NCBI RefSeq assembly: GCF_000264995.1
Contig: NW_006767456.1
Coordinates: 162,052-226,051, forward strand
DNA: 64,000 bases
Direction: 5' to 3'
Source of the DNA: Punctularia strigosozonata HHB-11173 SS5
Taxonomy: Eukaryota; Basidiomycota; Agaricomycetes; Corticiales; Punctulariaceae
Of this stretch, positions 5,092-32,782 are shown piece after piece. The position numbers and the translations under genes were made by a program. The notes beneath the pieces were generated by a model. The model had not been told where the DNA came from. It ran no database searches and worked only from the letters and a program-made list of their open reading frames with translations. Each line of letters begins with the position of its first letter. Position 1 is the stretch's first letter.

Positions 5092-8000
5092 TCACCCTTC
5101 GAAACGGACTCGTGCGTCTTTTTTCGCGGACTTGCGGAATAGAGTAGCAAGGAGGCGATCTCTTGCCTCAATTACATGCTGAGATGATCCTGCGTACGCG
5201 GCTTGCGTCAGCAAATCATTACGAGCATCGCACAGTCGCGACCTACCCGTTATCTGCAGCAGCTTGGCGCCCTCGGTACTCGGGAGCACGCGTACCAACG
5301 TCTTCGTGTCGCGCTCGAGCTTCCGCAAGCTTTCTTCGTTTCTCGCCAGCAAATCTGGCACCGCAGGTGCAGGCACCGTCAGGAACCCGACACTTTTCTC
5401 ATTCCGGACGAACTCGTAGGCCTCGTTGATGACCTTTTCTGCCAACACGGTGCCCCTCTCGTCCCTGGCCACAACGCGCCACGTCACAGAATTCGTGTCC
5501 TGCGGGCTGAAGCGGTCGACGAGTGACCATTGTACGCCGTTGCTGTACACGTGGTTCGGCCGCGTAGGAGGCTTGGGGTGGTACTCGTGCTCCGCGAGCG
5601 GTTCGGGCGTAATCGTGACGCCAACGGACTGCAGTTCGTGACGCACGCGCCGGAACATGGCATGCCGGTACTTGCTGCGTATAACGATTTCTACCTCGCG
5701 CTCTTGGAGCGATTCCTTGAGACGCTGCCAAGAGAACAAAGACGCCTCATTAACGCGATGCCGCGGAACCTTCGACTATAGACCACTCACTGTAAGCTCG
5801 TCGAATGCCGCCTTATACTCTCTGTGTGTGCCTTCGATCTTGACCACAGTACTGCGATCCAGGTTGTCGCACCCGTACGGTTCTCCGCACTGATCGTAAC
5901 CGGACTCTCCGGGAAACCAGACGTCAGCGCCGGAGACCGCTTTAATATGCGCAGCAGATTTCATCAGTTCGGCGTGGTACCGAACGTCGATCGCCCGACC
6001 ATAGACCTCCCTTGACTGAGCGGCGACGACGCGTCGAATTTCCAGTTCGAGGCGATCCAACAGCTCTGGCGAGCCGTGTAAGCGTATCTTATCCGAGGCC
6101 TCCGCGCTGGATGTGATGTCAGTGTGGTGCGGCAAGTTTTTCAGCTCGGAGAAAGCGCTCACACTTCAATCAATTCCCGTTGAAGGGCGGGTTCAACCGG
6201 CCCATCGCAAGCCGCAACGATGCGGTACCAGGCACGCCAGTCATTCCCAACGATGAGATGATGTAGATTCCGCCGAATAGATAGCACACGTTCGGCCTCG
6301 GCAGATACCTGGGCGTGGATCTTCTTGACCTCGGCCTCGGCGCTGGCCACAGCATCGCGGGTCCCTCTAATGATGATCTTCCGAGATCCGTCCACTCCGG
6401 CGTCGTCAGACAGGCGTAAATCCGCTTTGGCGAGCCTTATAAGTCGATTGAGCTCGAGGGCCACCCGCTTCGTGGTGCGGGCAGGAAGCCGCAAGACAGT
6501 CGGAGCCGCCACTTCGTCAGCAAGCTAAGCAAAAGAATCAGAAACATACTCAAGACCTCGCAGTGACGCTTGTTTACCTTTAAAATGTCTTTCTCAGCCG
6601 CGACAACGTCTTTAGTCATTCCACGTATCACGACGCGGCTTCGGGTTCGCTGAGGTAAGATATCCACGCCATGTCTGTCTTTCAGACGCTTGAGCTTATC
6701 GCCGCTCACGTCGATCACTGCTCTGGGAACCTGGACGGCTTTCTCCTTCGCCGCCGCCTGTACCAGCAGTCAACACTCGCGTAATTCTGATCAACGTTCG
6801 AGTCACCTTCCCCACCGCCAACGACTGTAGACGCGACTTCGCCTCCTCTATGTTATCCGGAGGACCATATATCTGCGCGAAACCCAGTCAGTTACGGGCA
6901 AGGTTAGTGATACGGGATACTAACCTGTATCTCGGCTCCCTCTGACTTAATCTTGACGAGCAGATCACTCTCGTAACTCTTGACGGATGCTGCGTAAGTC
7001 GTGACGATGCGCCTGAGAACCTTGTCGTTCAGGCGTACGCTGCCCTACAAGGAAAGTCAGAGACAACCTAGCGATGGGCCGTTTGAACGAACCATCTATA
7101 TGGTGTATGAGTTTCACCGTTCAAGTGTACCCATAGACATCAAGCTTACTGTCCAAGGCCGATTATCGCTTCTGATAGAGGCCGGCGATACCCATACAGA
7201 TGCCTTCTCTTGGAAGAGATCGACCAACTCGTTCAACTTCGGTCGCTTGGCGGGGTCCTTATCCCAGCAGGCGTATAGCTTAGACCAGACGTCGTTCGTG
7301 AGTCCGCGAACGACAGCAGACCACCCCGGTTGAAGTGGCCTCTCGTCCTGAGCTTGAAGAGCGCTCAATACCGCCATGTCATTTCGTTTATCACTGAAAG
7401 GAAGGTCTCCCGTCAGAAGCTCCAGCGCAAGCATCGCGAATGCCCATCTACAGGGATGATACTTTAGTAGATATACGAAATGAATTGTGAGGGTGCGCTG
7501 ACATATCTGTCTCCTTGTTGATGGTGGGTTTATCAAGGATGCTGATGAGCTCAATTGCCATCCACCGGACGGAACCACTGTCAAGAGCCGAAGACATCGT
7601 GGCGCCGTTGTAGCGAAGAGTAGCCAAACCGAAATCGCATAGCAGTGGTCTCCCGTCATCGCTGACCAGTACGTTCGCCTAGCACCGTGTCAGCGGTTGT
7701 GATGAAGATTTATATCAAGGGACTCACGCATTTCAGATCGCCATGGATGATGGTCGGGACGTGATTATGCAGATAGGTTAGGGCAGAGCCGATGTCCGCC
7801 AACTATTCCGAACTGATGACCTCAAGCAGTACTATCACAGTACTACGCGCTTACCTGCTGAAGTCGGTTGATGTATGCGTTGCGCTGTTTCTTACTGTAG
7901 TCGCTCAAGTTCCCATTGCGGCACCAGGGGGCCACCATACTGATGCCCATATAGGTCTCTGTCTCCGTGATCCCAATCAGCGGAAGGATGTTGGGGTGCT

Positions 8001-9072
8001 CGAGGAGAGACCAGAGGAGGATCTCTGTGCGAAGTGACTGGCGGGAATTTGAGTGTCAATCACATCGTCAGTCAGGAAGCAATGCAAACCTTCAGTCGCT
8101 TTGTGTTGTCCTGGGCGGAATAGAAAGTGATTGTCTTGACGGCTACCGTCCTTCCGTCGGATAGATTGCCTTTCGATACGCGGCCAAAACCGCCGCTTGC
8201 GCGTTCTTCGAGATTACGAGGGGCGGTAACCCGAGGCACGAAGGTGTAGAATGCGGCAAGGTCACGTTTGCATAGCTCGTTGAGAATCTTGTATGCTTTC
8301 GTGCGACACCCGTCTTTATGATCCGTTGTGCGGAGCACCTATGCAACCTCAGTCGGTACCGATTCTAGATGTCGATCGTGGACCGCGTACCTGACCCATG
8401 ACTTTGGCGATGCAGAGCGCGTCATCGCCTTGTACCTTGCAGCAATCGCGATAGAAACTGATATCGTCGAGAGCCAGACGAAGACGACGCAGTATATCGC
8501 CCCAGTCCTCTGCTGGATATTCCGGGGCGGCAGAGGTCACAGCCGGGGAAATTATAAAGCCGAGCGACTAGAAGCGAACGTCAACATATTTAGCATGGAA
8601 CAGTGGCGAAGAAGGATTATCATCACGTACTGCATCAAGGATCTGCTTGATCTCCCGTTCGAACGCTTTGAGCTCCCGAGGCATGCGCAATAGAAGAGAT
8701 AGTAAATCGTTTCCAAGCTTTAGCCATTCCGCACATTTCTGCAGTAAACGTCGATAGAAACTGGGCGGAATGTCAGCAACGCCCACGATTAGACCTAAGA
8801 GCGTGATTTACTCCTCAACGTCGCCCAACAGATCGATCGTACTCGTCGTGGAAACCTGGTCTTGCAATACCCTGCATTGGGCCATCAATTTGCAGAAACG
8901 ACACTGCGCATACGTGAGCTCTCATGCACCAACATGTGATATGAGATAGGCCCACCTTGAATGCGACCATGTGCGACTCATAGGGCACGAGGCGCGAGTA
9001 CAGGTCTACGATCTTCTGGCGCCTCTCTTGCTTCTTCGCTTCCTTGTAAGCGTTACGAGAGTGCGTGTTCAT
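5092..9072 (-). CDS. Protein kinase fused to multiple KH-like domains (copy 1)
   Basis: Multi-exon gene read from 9072 down to 5092. The N-terminal 250-300 residues are helical and unrecognised (for example RRQKIVDLYSRLVPYESHM). A tyrosine-kinase-like kinase domain follows, with ASGGFGRVSKG as glycine loop, VAVK as ATP-anchoring Lys, HGDLK catalytic loop at 7731-7745, DFGLA, then VRWMAIELI and a C-lobe ending near LVDLFQEKAS. A single intron region (about 7048-7203) then joins in phase 0 to GSVRLNDK, the start of a KH-like repeat. Several KH-like units continue, such as YGPPDNIEEAKSRL, VSGDKLKRLKDRHGVDI and GSRKIIIRGTRDAV, resembling the repeats of vigilin/Scp160 RNA-binding proteins. No stop or start separates the two halves. 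A paralog with the same order lies on the other strand at 12.8-17.2 kb. Role inferred: a signalling kinase guided by RNA or ribosome binding. The true start could lie in a further upstream exon. Confidence 0.75.
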
Positions 9073-10673
9073 CTTAGATGAGATAGTAGGCGGAGGGCGG
9101 TTGCGATATGAAAGACGCCTCGTCGATCTTGCGGAAATCGAGCCCGCGTGGCCCTTCTTATGTACACAACGTCACATCGCCTATGCTGTTGATGAGGCAG
9201 GAGTGGCTTGCAACCTACGATATAGCAGTTAGCCTATAATGGAACACAGGGGCACCATGGGATGACTCGTTCAAGGATCCTGTATCGCCTCGTACAGCAC
9301 GACCATACGGGGCGATGCGGGCGCCTATTACGAACGCAGTCCAGAATATGTAAATCGGGGCTGCGTGTGTGCTGATCATATGCGATTCTGGAAGTAGCCG
9401 GCCCGGTTAGAAGACAGACTCCGGTACTGCGAATATATGCTCCAAGTTAGCATTGACATATCAGGGGCATGTGATGGGAGACATCGGGCGCGTTCGGCGT
9501 CGCAGATTTGACTACCCTGTCTCCACGGGTTAGAAGGTACCGCCATACTTACTGGGGAACTATGCATTAGTTTGGCCCCGTCATGCTGTCGATTACGCGC
9601 CGATGAAGGACAGGGCCGTGAGAATAGCTCGCCTTGCAAAGGAGATTGATAGACATCTATAGGATTCAATGAAACCCCTTTCCCATCATTCATTGCATGG
9701 CAGCGCATGGACGCGAGGCACTGTAGTCTGTAGGTTGCTTGCCTCAGCCAGTAGAGCGGAGACACAGGACTAGGCTGTGGGTTAAGTATATGCGCCCATC
9801 CCAAAAGATACCATGAAACCGTATGAAGTCGGGCCATCCTGGAGCTGGAGCCTAGAAGTATCTGTTGGTGTATGAGGCATGATGAAGGCCTCAGCGCATG
9901 TTAGCATTTGATAGGCAGCCGGGCTTGAAGTCGATTATCTAACTCGAGGCGATGAACGCCGACGAATGGGACCGTCCTTCTGCTCTGTTAGCTTTCCACG
10001 CTCCGAGCGTAGAACGGCGCATGCTCTCCAGGTTTAACCCAATGTAAGCGCGAAGGAGAATGGAATCAATGGATGTGGTTGCATACGAGGGTACAGTTTC
10101 GGACCCATTTCGGACTTCACCGCATGATTAACAGAGGCAAACAATAGGATGACCGAAACACCGACGTTTTCGGATTTTACGTCCTCGTAGTCTTCACCTA
10201 CGACCGTCCATAGAATACAGCGTTGGCCGGTTTACGATCTCGACAACGAATATAGCGACTTGAAGACTATCGATAGGAGCTACATTAGACGCCTCTCTAC
10301 TGCAATACAACCTCGGCACAGGATGAGGTCTCAATCACCGGCTTCCGGCCCCGCTAAGGCTCAGGCCTCAGGCAAAGTTATACTCCATGCGCATGTATCT
10401 GCAACCGGATGCAGAAACCGAGTGAGCCTCGCTTGCGCTTAGTGTGCGCCGGTGGTGCGTAGGAACCAGGGTGAGTTAATCGATTCCCATTTTAGGGGAC
10501 GGTCAACTCACCTGATCGCACGCAAGCTCAACCCCAGGCCGAATTTTGCGATTCCGGGGTTGAAGCTTCTGTCCAAGCCACTGTTGCTTAAAACGCCCGG
10601 CTATCACGACAAGCATCAGCGAATTCTCTCTTCCCCACACTGCTCCCCAAATCGTCTTTGTTCGACATCCACC
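9073..10673. other. 1.6 kb divergent intergenic region
   Basis: No gene recognised. A 153-codon open frame on the minus strand (9376-9837) has no domain, composition or neighbour support. The stretch lies between the divergent kinase-KH copy 1 and the ALDH gene, so it must hold both promoters. Confidence 0.4.
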
Positions 10674-12648
10674 ATGGTTGAGTTGAAGCATACCGTCGTC
10701 GACGAGTTGCCGAAGGTATGTGTATTTGCGATATCGTGTATCTAAATTCATATTCGTTCGTCGCTGCAGATTGCGGAAGAACTCAGGGCGACATTCCGCA
10801 GTGGCAAGACGAGGCCCCTCGCATGGAGACGGCACCAGTTACACCAGGTCGCTCGCATGATGCAAGAGAACAAAGACGAGTTCACGAAGGCCATCGCCTA
10901 CGACATGCGCAAGCCTGCCCTGGAGGTATACGCCGCGGAAATTGGGCCCATCACCGAGCGCGCACTGAAGAGCGCCGAGCAACTGGAGGAGTGGGCCAAA
11001 CCCGAGCTGGTGTCCGTCCCCGACTGGCAGAAATCGTGGCAGCCAACCCTGACCAAGATGCCCAAGGGTGTGGTGCTCAACATCGCGTAAGCTGTCCCGT
11101 TGCCCGTGTTTCGCAACTCGCTCAAAGAAGAGCGCGGACGCAGTCCTTGGAACTACCCCATTATTCTCACGCTGCAGCCCCTGATTGGGGCAATCGCCGC
11201 GGGGTGCTGCTGCGTCGTCAAGCCCTCTGAGCTCGCGCCTGCTATCGCGCAGCTACTCGCCGATCTCGTCTCTCGTTATCTCGACCCGTCCGCGTACCGC
11301 ATCGTGAACGGTGCTGTCACAGAGACGACGAAGCTTCTCGAGCTAAAATGGGACCACAGTGCGTTCCCCCGTTCCCAGCCCCGTTATCATGAATCGCTAA
11401 TCCCGCGCACATCTTCCAGTCTTCTACACCGGAAATGGCAGGATAGCCAGGATCGTGGCCGCCGCGGCGGCGAAGCATCTCACGCCCGTCACCTTGGAAC
11501 TCGGCGGCAAGTCGCCGGTAATCGTCGACCCATCCTACGACCTCGAGTTGGCCGCCAAACGGATACTGTTCGGCAAGGCTTGCAATGCTGGCCAGGTTGG
11601 TGCACATCACTATCCATGAGCTCCTGCGCTTACGGACGGCGACGTTCAGATTTGCGTTGCGCCGGACTATGTCCTCATCCCTCGTAGCCAGCAGGACGAA
11701 CTAGTGGAGGCGATGAAGGCTCGGATTGCTGAGTGTTACCCTGAGGGTACCCTCAAGTCCGATTCATACGGGCGCATCATCTCGGACCTTCATCAAAAGC
11801 GCCTGAAGTCGTTGCTTAATGCCACGAAGGGCGTTGTCGTCACAGGAGGTCAGACCGACGACGACCGAGGCTTCGAGCTCACAATTGTCAAAGACGTTGG
11901 AAAGGGCGACTCACTGATGTCCGAGTACGTATGCCATAGCCGGCTTATAACTACGATTGACGAACGTCGTCACAGAGAAATCTTCGGGCCCATTCTTCCG
12001 ATCGTTCCTGTCGATAGTATGGACGAAGCTATCGCGTTTGTGAACGAAAGGTATGCCGGGCCTTTGTACTTTCATCGCCTGCGCAGCATGCCAATGTTGA
12101 TATTAGACCGCATGCGCTCGTTCTGTACGCGTTCACCGAAGATCCTCAGGTGAAACAGCAGAGTAGGTTTCGTTCGTCCACCCGACGATGCGCAGCTGAC
12201 CCATCATGTCCTTACTCAGTCACAGATACAACGGCAAGCGGCAGTTTGGTCTTCAATGACACCTTCCAGCAGCTTTCAGGTGAGTGAACAGCATCGGCTA
12301 CTCAGTAGGACCGTCTCGCTCATCAATATTAATCTAGTTAACGAGACTCCATTCTCCGGCGTGGGAGAGAGCGGTTGTGAGTGGCTCGCTTCCGGCTTCC
12401 CCTTCATCTCTCACGATCCCCTCAAGACGGTGGACAAGTGATGAAGTACACATTCGACGGCTTCACACACCTACGGACCACGATAGACATCCCCAAAGAG
12501 TAAGCCCGAATTTACGGAAGGGCATTCGTTGGCTTACATGCAGTGCAGAGCCGAGCCCACCCTCGAGGTCCGCTACGCGCCGTACACCGCAGAGAAGCTT
12601 AGCATCATGACTGGCTTGTTCCAAAGTAGCATCCCAAGCGCAGCATGA
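10674..12648 (+). CDS. Aldehyde dehydrogenase, class 3 / fatty aldehyde type
   Basis: An NAD(P)-dependent aldehyde dehydrogenase that oxidises aldehydes to acids. The size (about 500 residues) and the PWNYP block place it with class 3 and fatty-aldehyde enzymes such as yeast Hfd1. The start at 10674 sits in a strong CACCATGG context, followed by an intron after codon 13. Visible blocks in order are [79 protein letters not shown] with the general-base Glu, [16 protein letters not shown] with the catalytic Cys just after an intron, EIFGPILPI and [12 protein letters not shown]. The C-terminus reads [11 protein letters not shown] and ends SIPSAA. Many short introns interrupt it; those near 12150-12380 were placed only approximately. 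No C-terminal membrane helix is obvious, unlike some fatty aldehyde dehydrogenases. It sits between the two kinase-KH paralogs and on the same strand as copy 2. Confidence 0.88.
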
Positions 12649-12803
12649 GCTAGTATGGGAGCATCGCGGGCATCGCATATCCAATTAGGTGATATCGTGC
12701 GTCCCGCAGCTGCATGGAGATCAGGTGCAGAGAATAACATTTTCCGTAGTTGTCGGGATTACGTGTACACTTTTATCTATCGGACTCATCAGATAGGTCG
12801 CCG

Positions 12804-15800
12804 ATGAAGGCGCCTGATTATGACACCTCTGTTTCCCTTGAGGATGCGTCGAATTCGATGGAATTTGTTCCGCGCTTTCTCAGGAAGCTATGTAACATCG
12901 AGGCAACCCTGGCGGATATAAGCGGTGGAATCAGAGCGGCAAGCGCCCATAGCCAACGTGATATATGTCGGGATATTTCGAACACTGTTGTGTGCGGCCA
13001 TGTCCCTGGACTCGCTGACCGTCACCGGCCAGCCTACATTACGCTCGGTTGCAACCTTGCACTTGCAGGGCGCATTTGAGGACTTGCGACAGCAACGTCG
13101 AATCGACAACCTCTATTCTGTCATCACTGACCATTCAAGAAATATCACACAGTATAAGGTATGCTCCACCTTTACGTGGACTCGAGATTGATTGGGTATG
13201 GGACTCAATTCTTTAGGCCTGGGTTGTAGACATTATACGATCTCTTGATAGTTTGCGGGAATTGTGCAATATATCGCGCGGATATGATGAGCTTGAAAGG
13301 TGAGCACACTTTGGTCCCACTTTGAATCAAGCCTCGCTTATACGCAACCCTGTTAGTCTACTGCAAGATGCTGCGACGGAGTTCTCCAAGTGGACGGGTC
13401 TGAACACGCACGATCATTTCATCGAACTTCTTGTACGCTTGCCCGCCGACTTGACCAGATTGGATGGTACAATCAAAGGTTTCCGGGACCGTGTACGTAG
13501 TCCATTTATTGCACTCGCATATGCTAAATTCCTCGCAGATTGTCAGATCTTCACGTTTACCACCGCTTGTTGACGGATTTGTTTGGCACGGCGAGGATTG
13601 GCAAGATCTCTACCTGTTCCTCCGGCGGTTCCTGCCTTCGACACAGTTCTACGATGCAGCATTATCGTTACGTGGCGATGAGGCAGAGCGCATGATGGTG
13701 CTCATGCAAAAGGCAAGAACTCCCGATGCGCTACCTGTCTATAATCCCTTGACCTGCATTGCAGTATCTCGACCACAGCAACCCCACAGATACGTTGCGA
13801 AACCAGGCCTTCAAGACACTAAGCCGCCTGTGCAAGATTGCACAGAGATTCGTGGCCATTTCTGTGTTGACCTTACAGGGCGACAGCCTCGTCGTCACAG
13901 CCGGAGGGTTTGGTTCCATTTCCAAAGGACGTCTGTTCGATGGGCAGATGGTCGCAATCAAGACGCCTCTGAGGCAATGTACCGCAGGATACAATGATAC
14001 TTTACAAAAGGTTGGCTCTATCTATGTGGCAACATGGGGCTGGGCTTACGGTCGCCACAGATTCTGCGGACGGAAGTCTTGATTTGGCGCCAATTACGCC
14101 ACGAGAATATACTTCCTTTACTTGGCATAACGCACACCCGGATTGCCGACATCAGGCTGGTGACGCCTTGGCAATCGAAGGGCAACTTGTCCCAGTTCAT
14201 GAAGCAGCCGGAGGCGGAATCGGTCAACCGGTTGGATATGGTAACTTTCGCAAAATCGCGTTGCCCAGGCATTCCATGATTCTGACTCTTGCTCGTAGTT
14301 GTTGAAGATAGGACGGGCTGTCGATTATCTCCACAATCACCAGCCAAACGTCATACACGGGGACTTGAAATGTGTGAGTCACTTACGTCTTGATCAATCT
14401 GAGACTGATTGGAAGTAGGTTAATGTCCTGGTCGGATCTGATAACAACCCTCTCATTTGCGACTTCGGACTGTCAGCTGCTCGCTATGCCAACTCTTCAA
14501 GTACTTCATCGCCAGACGGAGGATCGTTCCGCTGGATGGCGGTCGAACTACTCGCAAATGAGCAGGACATCAAGCCCTCTACTCAGTCCGACGTGTGAGC
14601 TCCATGGCTTGCTGTTTATGCTCTTTAGTCACGCTAGTTGTATGTAGATGGTCGTTTGCATCGCTTGCATGGGAGCTTCTCACCGGAAAACTACCCTTTG
14701 CCGACAAGTTGACAAACAATGCAGTCAGGGCCGCAGTCATCTCTGGCGAGCGACCGCCTCAAGGAGATTTCCACGCCGTTCGTCGTGGTCTATCGCATAA
14801 GCTCTATCGTCAGCTGCGAGCATCGTGGTCGGTCGACCCGGATAAGCGACCAACGATTGGTGCGCTTCTTCCAGTGATATCCAATTTATCCTCGGAATGG
14901 GAGCAGTTCTTCTCCATCTCCACACAACCTCGCAGAAGAACGGTGAGTGTTGATGTTCATCTTCCATAACAGTGACGAGTTCATACCAACCCATCTGTAG
15001 ACGGTAAGGATGAATAGTGTTGTGCTAAGGCTCTAAATAATCATCCGCTCTCAACCTAGGGTAGTATAGTTCTTGATGGCGAACTTCAGGGACGTCTGAT
15101 CGGCATGGACGGTGATAGCGTTCGTCAATGCGAGCAGGATCTCAATGTTCGGATCAGCGTCGTCGAGCGCGAGCTCATCATCGAAGGTCTTCCCGACAAC
15201 GTCGAAGAGGCTAGGGCGCGCATGCGAGAACTCGCTGATGGAGAGGTGAGTCTAGAACCTGTCTTTGGGCTGATGATATACTCAGTGAGGACCTTTCAGA
15301 GCGACATCGAACGAAGGGTCATTATACCACAGCATTTGCGCAACAAGTGGATCGGTCTTCAGAGCGCAGTCATCAAGCAGAGTCTGCAGGCAAAACATGA
15401 CGTTGTCGTGACTTTCCCAACTCCCGGGGAGTATGCGGTTGTTCGTGGAGCGATAAAACATGTGTTGGCGGCGGAGAACGAGCTTCGGGACGTACGTCCT
15501 TCTTCAATTTGCTCAATGTGACCGATGTGGTAACTGAAGTTTGGACCAGGTTATCGATCCGCAAATGGAGAAAAAGACCATGAAAGTTCCACGAAGAATG
15601 GTCGCAAGACTCCAGGTCTGTTTGGAGGAACTCAGGAAGGAATCCGGCGCTGCAATCACTTTGACACATCCGCGGAAGGAAGGGGATCCTACCCTCGTTG
15701 TCATCAGTGGGCGCAGAGCTGCCGTCCGCGATGCGAGCAAAATCCTCAGAGTGTGGAGCGCTCAGCTACGTCCCCAAGAGAAGGTGATCCATGTAAGTCG

Positions 15801-17201
15801 CACATAATACATACATTGGTCACGCCTGACGAGATCGTGGCAGATATGCCATCGAACTGCTTGCCGTCTACGACTTCCTGACCAACTGCGCGCAATAACG
15901 ACGGCGTCTGGCGCGTTCGAGATCGTGGTTGGTGCATATGATCAGCGCCGAACTGGTGTCGAATGTCCCATCTTGCTCTCCGCCAATGATCGAGAAGCAT
16001 TGGAGGAGTGCGAAAAGCTTGTTCGCCAGATACAATCCGACATCTCCGAAGAACATGTAAGGTGGATCGCACTTCCGGAGAGCAAGCAGGAACAGGTGCT
16101 TGGCCATGAACTACAGCAATGGGCAGAGGTCGTCACAGCCTGCGGAGGCCCCATGGATCCGTCCGTACAACGGGAAATGCTACTCGACACGTACGTGCAG
16201 CGATGATGATATACCGACCTCGTTTGATAATTGAGCCGAGCAGAACTCCTCACGCGATTCACGTTCGAGCCAAAGTCAAGCTATTGGATGCCATCGAAGC
16301 GCATATAAAGACACTCATAAGCAGCCACACAGTCTGCGTATACGGCACGTCGATAGCAACGCACCTTCACGCTACGCTGCAGGCCCACCTGCGAGACCGC
16401 CCAGAGAGAACGGAGGCGATAGTATTATTCCCCGATGATGACACGTACTCTTCGATTGGGAAACCCATCAACTATTCGGGGAAGGGACCGGAGACGATCG
16501 TGAAGATCGTAGGAACGCCGTCGGACTATCAGAAGACGAGAAAATACCTCCACGTATGTACTCTTCCAGCTTAGATCATAACAACAGCAACACTGATGAA
16601 CATGCAGTTGCTAGTTACTGAGTTCGAAACCAAGGAACGTTCAGTGCAGGTACCCCTCAAGTATAAAGTCGCTATATATGAACTTGCCGAAGAGCAATTG
16701 TCTCGCCTTGGCGTCAGTGTCGTCGGTCAGCCTGAATCTATTGCGGAAAGATCGACCCAGTCGGGTCCAACCCCCATCCTCCATCGAGCCGACGAGAACG
16801 CCACCATCTGGGAGCTCAAGAGCAGATACGATCCTTTGGAAAGCGGTAACGTCTCTTGGATCATCCACGGCGAGTCTTCGGAAGCATTGGACGAAGCCGA
16901 ACGTTTGATCCGCGATGCATGCGCTAGAGCGCGAGAGGCCAGAAAGGTCGGGTTCCTCACATTGACGCGAGGCGCCGACATCGGAGACGAGGATTTGGCG
17001 AGGATAGCCAAGCGCTTCAAGATAAAAATATGGCGACTTCCCGAGAGCGAGGCCGTAGTCCCGGGACGTTTAACGATCACCTTCATCGGTGAGGAGCGAA
17101 TAAATCATCGCTCGAGGTTCTTCACTCACAGGTTCATCTCAGGATCGTCGAAGGAGATAATGGATGCCAAAGCGACTGTAGAAGCCATTGCCGGAATCTA
17201 G
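12804..17201 (+). CDS. Protein kinase fused to multiple KH-like domains (copy 2)
   Basis: Paralog of the minus-strand gene at 5.1-9.1 kb, with the same domain order. The helical N-terminus includes RRIDNLYSVITDHSRNITQY and VDIIRSLDSLRELCNISRG, each followed by an intron at the same place as in copy 1. The kinase shows TAGGFGSISKG, VAIK, HGDLK (14356-14370), DFGLS (from 14461), FRWMAVELL and a C-lobe ending LPVISNLSSEWEQF. A phase-0 splice then leads to GSIVLDGELQGRLIGMDGDS, whose GMDG matches the GxxG loop of KH domains. At least five KH-like units follow to the stop at 17201; later ones have degenerate GxxG loops, as in vigilin. Estimated length is about 1,200 residues. The first ATG (12804) needs an intron near 12950-13070 to reach the next exon, so the extreme N-terminus is uncertain. 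Function is inferred: a kinase with an RNA- or ribosome-binding module. Confidence 0.75.
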
Positions 17202-17257: not shown

Positions 17258-19390
17258 TCATACCAACATCATGGATAGACCTGTCACCACGAATGCGAAC
17301 ATGATAGCTACCAAAGATTGGCGATTCTCCCTTGGGGCGCCACTATCTGTACCCTGTCCCGCTGCCAGTTTGGTCACGACATCCCGGCAAAGCGTCGAAT
17401 TCATAGCGCTTAGGACCGACGCTGGCATCAAAACCTGCAAGCCATGGTCGATTAGATTCCTACCTATCACCATCTGCATCGCATCGAGCAAGACATACCT
17501 GAGGCATGCCATGCTCCCTCTTCACATGAATCTCGCCCGTTTCACCGGTGCGCCACTGGGCACAATTCAAGATGTCGATAACAGCGGTGTTGTTGCCCAA
17601 TCCCGCGTCCGGCAGACCATAAACTACGGTGGACTGGTTGCCGAGGTTGGTGAGGAGAGCGAGCAGGGGTGGCTTGGAGATGGCGATGGTGGGCGCTTCC
17701 CCAGGAGGACTAACGAACTTCATCTGTGGGGACGGTTAATCGCGAATTGTTACATATAGAAAGGGCGGGATATTACCGGAGATTCTAGGAAGGAGTATCC
17801 CGGGGCGGAGATGGCGGCCTTGCGGGCTGCATTGAGGCGCCCAAGCTGATCCAGAAGAGGTCGCTGCGCTGGATCATCTACGTAGTCCGACAACCAAAGG
17901 CTAGATAGGGGGCGGGCGTGAGCGTACGCTTGTGGATAAATATGTGGATCGCATACGCTTCACGGTTATCAGGATCTGAAGCGCCTTGGAAGCCTTGCTC
18001 CTGGCCTATTCTCGTATGTCACGAAGGCCTCTGGTGATAGTGTGCGTACACGTACCATAATAGACAATTGGAATGCCGTCATGGATATAGGGCAAGACCA
18101 TGGCGTTCCGAACCAGCTATATAGGTGTTGGAAGTTATCGGAGGCTAATCACAACGCACGAGACTCACCGATTGATCTGAAGTGGTCGACGCGAATCTGG
18201 GTTGGTCATGGTTGTCGAGGAAGGCCCCTGTGCTAAATGCGCCGCCTTTGTAGCTCTTCTGGGCTTGGGTGATGATGTTGGCTATATTTGAGAGGTTTCC
18301 GCTCGCGGATTTGAAGCCGTCCGTAAGGGCAAAATAGGTCGGATAGTCAAGGATGCTGTCGAGGACCTCTGCGCGAAATCAAGAATCAGATGCACATTCG
18401 CGTCCAGCTCAGAGAGGCTCACGGGTATAAGGTGCTGTATAATCTGTGCTGCCCTCGAGAATCTGTATCAACTTGTCAGACATACAAAGGTCACATGGAT
18501 TACAATCCCAGACTTTACCTCTGCTATGGTGAACACTCCTGCGGCTGACGCAAATCCGGGCCAAAAGTCCTTCCTGATGTGTTTGGCTGTATCGATCCTG
18601 AGGCCGTCGATGTCGTATGTCTTGACTAGATCGCCGATCCATTGATACATGATGTCGACCGTCGTCTGATTTTCGGTGTTGAGGTCAGCGAGCGGAAGGT
18701 TGACGTCGCCTAGCCAGCACTGCTCCACGTCTGTCTGGTTATTGTAATCTTGTATGAAACACGGCGCATGATAATCCGTTGAGGTGCCAAAAGGTGTGAT
18801 GGTGCTATAATCGAGGGCTGGTACTCCCGCCGTGGAAGCGCTGGTATTATCTGGGAGGGCGACCATATGATTGACTACGACGTCAACCATGAGATACATC
18901 CCACGTCCATGGAGAGCGGTCACGAGGTTTTTGAGGTCGTCGGGGGTACCGAAATGCGGGTTGAGGTTGTTGATGTCGCTCGGCCAGTATCTGCGAAGGC
19001 CCGATCAGAGAATCGTTGCAGCGTGGGTCAAAACAGCGTACCCATGATATGCTTCCCCGTACGATGTGTTCCCGGCCACGTTGGCAACGATTGGGGATAT
19101 CCATACCGCGTCAAAACCCATGTTTTCGATGTAGTCCAGTTTGTTAATCAGTCCATCCCAGGTGCCCCCGCAGTACCGACGGTCACCAGTGAAACACGGA
19201 GGACTTGAGCCGTCACTGGTAGCAAAGCGATCTACGACGACCTGGGGAGGCATGGTTTAGTAAAGGGTATATGGCACAGCCGGGCACGACACACCTGGTA
19301 TATAGAGCGTTTTTGCCAGTCAGCGGCCGATGCGGCGAACGCGCCTGCAGTGAGGGCCGAGAGGACCAGAGAGAGATGAGGCGCTTTCAT
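17258..19390 (-). CDS. GH13 alpha-amylase, secreted, probably GPI-anchored
   Basis: A secreted alpha-amylase of glycoside hydrolase family 13, which cleaves alpha-1,4-glucans. The start at 19390 gives a signal peptide (MKAPHLSLVLSALTAGAFA). The mature part begins with DWQKRSIYQ and, after an intron, VVVDRFA. The GH13 regions are all present: DVVVNHM (region I), GLRIDTAKH with the nucleophile Asp (II), TIAEV with the acid/base Glu (III) and FLDNHDQPRF with the third Asp (IV). Cysteine-containing loops typical of fungal amylases are present (PPCFTGDRRYCGG, APCFIQDYNNQ). After the C-domain the protein ends with a small-residue stretch (AAGQGTDSGAP) followed by a 19-residue hydrophobic tail, the pattern of a GPI-anchor signal. 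Active-site His residues are kept, so it differs from the Aspergillus AgtA-type glucanotransferases, which replace them. A cell-wall role (alpha-glucan processing) is inferred from the anchor. Read through at least seven introns. Confidence 0.87.

Positions 19391-29983: not shown

Positions 29984-32782
<2,799 letters not shown>

Follow-up and report, generated by a model that had tools for sequence, protein, structure and literature searches.

Two paralogous kinase genes of Punctularia strigosozonata very probably carry a captured C-terminal half of Scp160/vigilin

Here, we describe two paralogous genes, A and B, in a 64,000-nucleotide (nt) stretch of the Punctularia strigosozonata HHB-11173 SS5 genome (GCF_000264995.1, contig NW_006767456.1, forward-strand positions 162,052 to 226,051; hereafter the window), each of which encodes a tyrosine-kinase-like (TKL) protein kinase followed by an array of KH-type units. 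Judging from the sequences, it is highly probable that an ancestral TKL kinase gene captured the last seven exons (7–13) of an Scp160/vigilin gene via a phase-0 intron and was then duplicated to give A and B. The donor gene, the breakpoint intron and the module can all be identified in one genome, so that exon shuffling can be read here with unusual clarity.

Pfam searches were run on models in which the last intron was still coding (1057 amino acids (aa) for A and 1131 aa for B). Both proteins matched PF07714 (aa 219–476 in A; E-values in Table 1) and KH_1 (6e-14 in A and 2e-12 in B, with three and two stretches, respectively, at E ≤ 1), in all cases above the curated cut-offs. Identity between the two proteins was 33% in a stretch of 709 aa (E 8e-110) and 26% in another of 365 aa. 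The initial annotation, made from the letters alone, had described two paralogous kinase-KH genes at these positions and had proposed a profile search as the check; this search returned a significant KH hit in each gene. It had also counted five or more KH-like units per gene, while homology to Scp160 now gives seven in A and eight in B, arranged in the β-α-α-β-β-α order of the type I KH fold. Single units were weak in Pfam: among those submitted one by one (five of the seven of A and five of the eight of B), KH_1 reached E < 0.001 in one of A and two of B, and its cut-off was exceeded by none of A and two of B.

A KH_1 search of the genome yielded 17 matches, and one group of these, on contig C3, corresponds to a full-length Scp160/vigilin gene (1234 aa, 13 exons, hand-spliced). 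In BLASTP, residues 536–1019 of A aligned in order with residues 689–1219 of this Scp160 (24.6% identity, E 1e-27), and residues 513–1053 of B with residues 638–1166 (21% identity, E 1e-13). Overall, A and B are each about 26% identical to the Scp160 of the same genome, which in turn shares 44% with that of Tilletiaria. The C-terminal half of Scp160 contains seven introns, after residues 632, 692, 714, 791, 918, 1035 and 1206, with phases 0, 0, 0, 0, 2, 0 and 1. All seven have a counterpart in A within three alignment columns and in identical phase, five of them exactly, a result reached by none of 200,000 random placements. In B, four of the seven lie within three columns (equalled in 1 of 200,000 random placements) and two are exact (equalled in 4 of 20,000). 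Two further B introns are found 4 and 6 columns from Scp160 introns, at alignment gaps; since they coincide with A introns in the A–B alignment (one exactly, one two columns off), we count six of seven for B. The intron after Scp160 residue 692 has no match in B, which instead has an intron of its own inside its inserted unit.

The kinase part of A, like that of B, ends at most one column from the site of Scp160 intron 6, in phase 0. This indicates that the captured module corresponds to Scp160 exons 7–13 and that the join is located within an intron. The shared introns show that genomic DNA was the route rather than a retrocopy. The likeness to Scp160/vigilin seen by the initial annotation can thus be specified as descent from the C-terminal half, and the shared introns together with collinearity rule out that the KH array is a fresh invention or displays only a general KH likeness. 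With respect to the Scp160/vigilin family, collinear homology extends over the array but covers the C-terminal half only. In place of the roughly 14 KH domains that span almost the entire protein in this family, the seven or eight units stand behind a kinase, and the RNA-binding GXXG loops of the family are lost in A and, except for one, in B, as described below.

Both gene models were spliced by hand, with predicted start codons, and contain 15 introns, which are all GT-AG in A and, except for a single GC-AG at 13713–13764, also in B. Hand-made models could in principle have joined separate tandem kinase and KH genes wrongly, and twice. However, the kinase and KH coding parts are only 105 (A) and 117 nt (B) apart, an identical phase-0 splice junction occurs in both copies although their fourfold sites have reached saturation, and, because the junction lies at an Scp160 intron, no separate start exon precedes the KH part. 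On these grounds separate tandem genes were rejected, and such an artefact is hardly credible. The final stretches of 57 nt in A and 54 nt in B read open; they were spliced out of the models because they are bounded by GT and AG and located at an Scp160 intron site.

Several observations concern these introns. The last intron of Scp160 (L022, about 2663–2719) also reads open at the same place as those of A and B, and forms retaining the last intron could be made. Retention of the junction intron (from 7149 in A and 14943 in B) would lead to a stop after 11 or 8 extra residues, respectively, so that either gene would yield a kinase-only form. In A (54+ATG+48) and in B (58+ACG+56), the junction intron can also be divided into two ordinary introns flanking a 3-nt exon. 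Some such split is permitted by 19% (A) and 29% (B) of shuffled sequences, which makes the finding only suggestive; it could be what remains of two introns at the site of fusion.

Table 1. Positions of genes A and B and of their parts, counted from the first nucleotide of the window.
Feature	Position	Strand	Remarks
Gene A, kinase-KH fusion	9072-5092	minus	16 exons, 1038 aa; hand-spliced model, open throughout
Gene A exons 1-8	9072-8956, 8903-8812, 8760-8631, 8567-8391, 8338-8090, 8037-7855, 7802-7728, 7678-7503	minus	
Gene A exons 9-16	7447-7150, 7044-6925, 6872-6807, 6757-6578, 6524-6163, 6106-5791, 5724-5247, 5189-5092	minus	
Gene A N-terminal region	8391..9072	minus	without Pfam match; later part aligns to pre-kinase stretches of some other kinases
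Gene A kinase exons and stretch just upstream of the domain	7150..8338	minus	kinase aa ~219-476, PF07714 1e-36
Gene A junction intron, kinase/KH array	7045..7149	minus	105 nt, phase 0
Gene A KH array	5092..7044	minus	seven units of KH type with homology to Scp160 residues ~633-1219; GXXG loop complete in none
Gene A last intron	5190..5246	minus	57 nt, stop-free, multiple of three; place and phase as in the last intron of Scp160
Gene B, kinase-KH fusion	13000-17201	plus	16 exons, 1113 aa; hand-spliced model, open throughout
Gene B exons 1-8	13000-13158, 13217-13299, 13357-13492, 13539-13712, 13765-14010, 14061-14240, 14299-14373, 14419-14594	plus	
Gene B exons 9-16	14648-14942, 15060-15245, 15300-15491, 15550-15792, 15844-16190, 16244-16553, 16608-17088, 17143-17201	plus	
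Gene B kinase exons	13765..14942	plus	kinase aa ~228-484, PF07714 1e-39
Gene B junction intron, kinase/KH array	14943..15059	plus	117 nt, phase 0
Gene B KH array	15060..17201	plus	eight units of KH type, seven with homology to Scp160 and one extra
Gene B KH unit 1	15060-15245	plus	only B unit with the GXXG loop kept (GMDG)
Gene B extra KH-type unit	about 15769-16040	plus	without Pfam match of its own
Gene B last intron	17089..17142	plus	54 nt, stop-free, multiple of three; place and phase as in the last intron of Scp160

In the A–B alignment, 13 of the 15 B introns match an A intron in column and phase. In addition, the introns at B 830 and A 741 are two columns apart, that at B 715 has no partner and that at A 539 is absent in B. 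The agreement at fourfold sites of matched codons was 0.16–0.24, compared with 0.26–0.27 expected by chance (21 to 83 sites per region). These sites are saturated, which indicates that the A/B duplication is old. At the amino-acid level, the agreement was 25% for the N-terminus, 47% for the kinase and 28% for the KH part. In the origin scan for the extra unit of B, the best scores were weak and pointed to unit 6 of Scp160, unit 6 of B and unit 3 of B (z 2.4–3.3; 14 units tried).

The faster divergence of the KH part than of the kinase would fit a leftover that is slowly decaying or serves as a mere spacer while the kinase works alone, and a retained junction intron would already yield such a kinase-only protein. 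However, frames and splice sites are intact over about 540–600 KH codons in both copies despite saturated fourfold sites, and conserved hydrophobic columns of the KH part are still hydrophobic in two thirds of cases. Thus, we regard a leftover as improbable; from the sequences, the KH part appears to be still under selection, if loosely.

Both kinases possess VAVK/VAIK, LRTE, HGDLK, DFG and WMA(I/V)E motifs (at aa 237, 257, 336, 356 and 380 in A and aa 247, 268, 346, 366 and 390 in B), among them the Lys, HGDLK and DFG motifs that had been pointed out in the initial annotation. The profile, the resemblance to TKL kinases and the presence of the catalytic Lys, Glu, Asp of HxD and DFG place A and B in the TKL group, and these motifs suggest that both encode active kinases. 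Among the best 60 of 2197 solved-structure matches to the B kinase, 58 were CTR1, RIPK2, B-Raf, roco4 or TNNI3K, which we take to be TKL-group names; the remaining two were tyrosine kinases, namely an EGFR chain (the top match) and a Src/Abl ancestor. An MLKL-like four-helix bundle was considered for the N-terminal regions of A and B, which had no Pfam match. Their later part (from about aa 118–200, depending on the match) aligned with the pre-kinase stretch of several kinases, some of them fungal. When the B N-terminal region was searched against the genome up to E 10, all five matches were to itself; the A N-terminus was missed as well, which limits what the search can tell of further copies.

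At six aligned positions where both the Scp160 of this genome and that of Tilletiaria have a complete GXXG (6/6 each), none is complete in A and one in B, and a model of A unit 3 predicts a continuous helix where the loop would be. By sequence, the A array matched no solved structure up to E 1, and neither model had a Foldseek match at E ≤ 0.001. The KH core persists in A and B, and we propose that their KH half no longer grips RNA in the canonical manner while its fold and part of its surface are retained. In excerpts from one paper, a change of GXXG to GDDG is described as a tool which abolishes RNA binding while the protein stays stable (PMC7371183).

According to the initial annotation, these proteins could phosphorylate targets on messenger RNAs (mRNAs) or ribosomes. 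On this view, the array still binds RNA and carries the kinase to mRNAs, where it would phosphorylate proteins of messenger ribonucleoprotein particles. In favour of it, the array is derived from a portion of an RNA-binding protein, and the KH domain nearest to the C-terminus of that protein is treated as RNA-binding in part of a review on vigilin (PMC8783092). The basic A array (isoelectric point (pI) 9.45) and the GMDG of B unit 1 also speak for it. Against it stand the near absence of complete loops, the acidic B array (pI 6.4) and the helix modelled in A unit 3. The loss of most loops makes direct mRNA targeting doubtful, and we consider this explanation unlikely; ribosomal targets may be reached through protein contacts.

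A plausible function, which we propose only tentatively, is that of an active kinase whose KH half is an arm docking on the protein partners of Scp160. Such an arm, lacking canonical RNA gripping and retaining its fold and some surface, would most likely dock at partners of the Scp160 C-terminus, which in yeast are eIF1A and, on the 40S subunit, Asc1/RACK1; this would place the kinase beside Scp160 or in competition with it. There it might phosphorylate translation-associated targets, triggered by whatever the N-terminal region senses. According to excerpts on the yeast protein, the C-terminus of Scp160 contacts Asc1 and eIF1A (PMC6492140), and its polysome association depends on Asc1 (PMC8783092). 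For human HDLBP, passages of one paper report weaker binding of one tested RNA by the five C-terminal KH domains than by the full-length protein (PMC9117268), whereas those of another place most RNA-binding sites in the C-terminus (PMC12984401).

Several points weigh against this docking function. Counted glycine by glycine, loop loss was faster than that of other conserved columns in A (2/12 vs 79/255) and not faster in B (4/12 vs 82/255). With the basic A array and the GMDG of B unit 1, non-canonical nucleic-acid binding may occur. Identity to Scp160 is down to about 26%, so that the surface for Asc1 binding may no longer exist, and the conservation in the arrays is not focused on the final units. 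In yeast, part of one report states, the KH domains of Scp160 are needed yet insufficient for polysome association (PMC6492140).

More speculatively, a half-vigilin stripped of RNA binding could act as bait or docking arm, either in a ribosome-stationed kinase that competes with Scp160 and reads or writes the state of translation, or as an integrated vigilin decoy in a fungal equivalent of plant kinase fusion receptors. The decoy by itself, in which the kinase senses an attack on translation and the worn vigilin half baits a Scp160-targeting factor encoded by a virus, a competitor or nonself, appears quite improbable: the pairing of an apparently active kinase with a host-protein copy that has degenerated, and the later duplication and divergence of this pair, would suit it, but we know of no attacker of fungal Scp160. 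The same idea has been put forward, as excerpted, for plant kinase fusion proteins (PMC10260397). With regard to docking, A and B offer a direct prediction of how an RNA-binding array can become a protein-docking arm, and a natural kinase joined to the vigilin half that faces the ribosome in yeast makes a link between signalling and the translating ribosome testable.

Between A and B lies an unrelated aldehyde dehydrogenase gene at about 10674–12480 (PF00171 in two exons; ends approximate). Elsewhere in the window, an alpha-amylase-type exon is present on the minus strand (18471–19004; PF00128 9e-24) and a further protein kinase on the plus strand (31806–32684; PF07714 matches), which by eye we take to be Ste20/PAK-like.

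Genome searches, which score the best candidates only, found no third kinase-KH gene; as a control, the B query recovered A via its kinase exons and three late array pieces. A candidate at C22:50252-50461 was rejected, as the adjoining reading frame has zinc knuckles and is splicing-factor-like by eye, presumably of the SF1/BBP family. Another multi-KH gene (G000:C1:1450952-1452501) has four KH_1 matches and weak similarity to Scp160 (E 4e-6). No kinase-KH fusion was present among 164 protein database matches (1, 68 and 95 per query), where each search scores about 8000 best candidates and, by our estimate, an orthologue below roughly 45–50% identity could be missed. The top match, P0003 (208 bits), was rejected as an orthologue of A, being a 974-aa tandem double kinase without a KH match. 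A hidden Markov model (HMM) of the array, applied to 165 sequences (these 164 and one B exon), matched solely the Tilletiaria Scp160, itself in the HMM alignment. Matches named Mycena, Marasmius, Tephrocybe, Arthromyces, Rhizoctonia and Tulasnella, which we take to be Agaricomycetes, indicate that such proteomes are present in the protein collection. Among the open-licence PMC papers listed, none dealt with a kinase that bears a KH array, and the main text of a survey on fungal kinases and the domains found with them never uses the term 'KH domain' (PMC2838846). Within the limited reach of these searches, the results agree with the initial annotation, which knew of no described kinase with a multi-KH array.

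In comparison with known systems, the arrays of A and B are closest to Scp160/vigilin (HDLBP), with whose C-terminal half they are collinear and share introns in place and phase (7/7 in A, 6/7 in B). They differ from it in the kinase that replaces the N-terminal KH half, the lost GXXG loops, the one extra unit of B and the identity of about 26%. Fungal TKL kinases, reported in parts of two papers to be expanded in some Agaricomycetes (PMC2838846, PMC3937382), resemble A and B in their TKL-type domain with HGDLK and, for some kinases, in an alignable pre-kinase stretch, whereas none of 163 kinase matches from the protein database fits the KH-array profile. The plant kinase fusion proteins Sr43, Lr9 and Pm4 of wheat likewise combine a kinase with another domain, proposed in excerpts to be an integrated decoy (PMC10260397); they are plant immunity genes, and no relationship is claimed. 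Finally, the KH-like domains of PARP9, DTX3L and PARP14 are, according to part of one paper, GXXG-less KH folds on signalling enzymes that are used for protein contacts (PMC11080071), a likeness to A and B that is found on different enzymes and implies no claim of descent.

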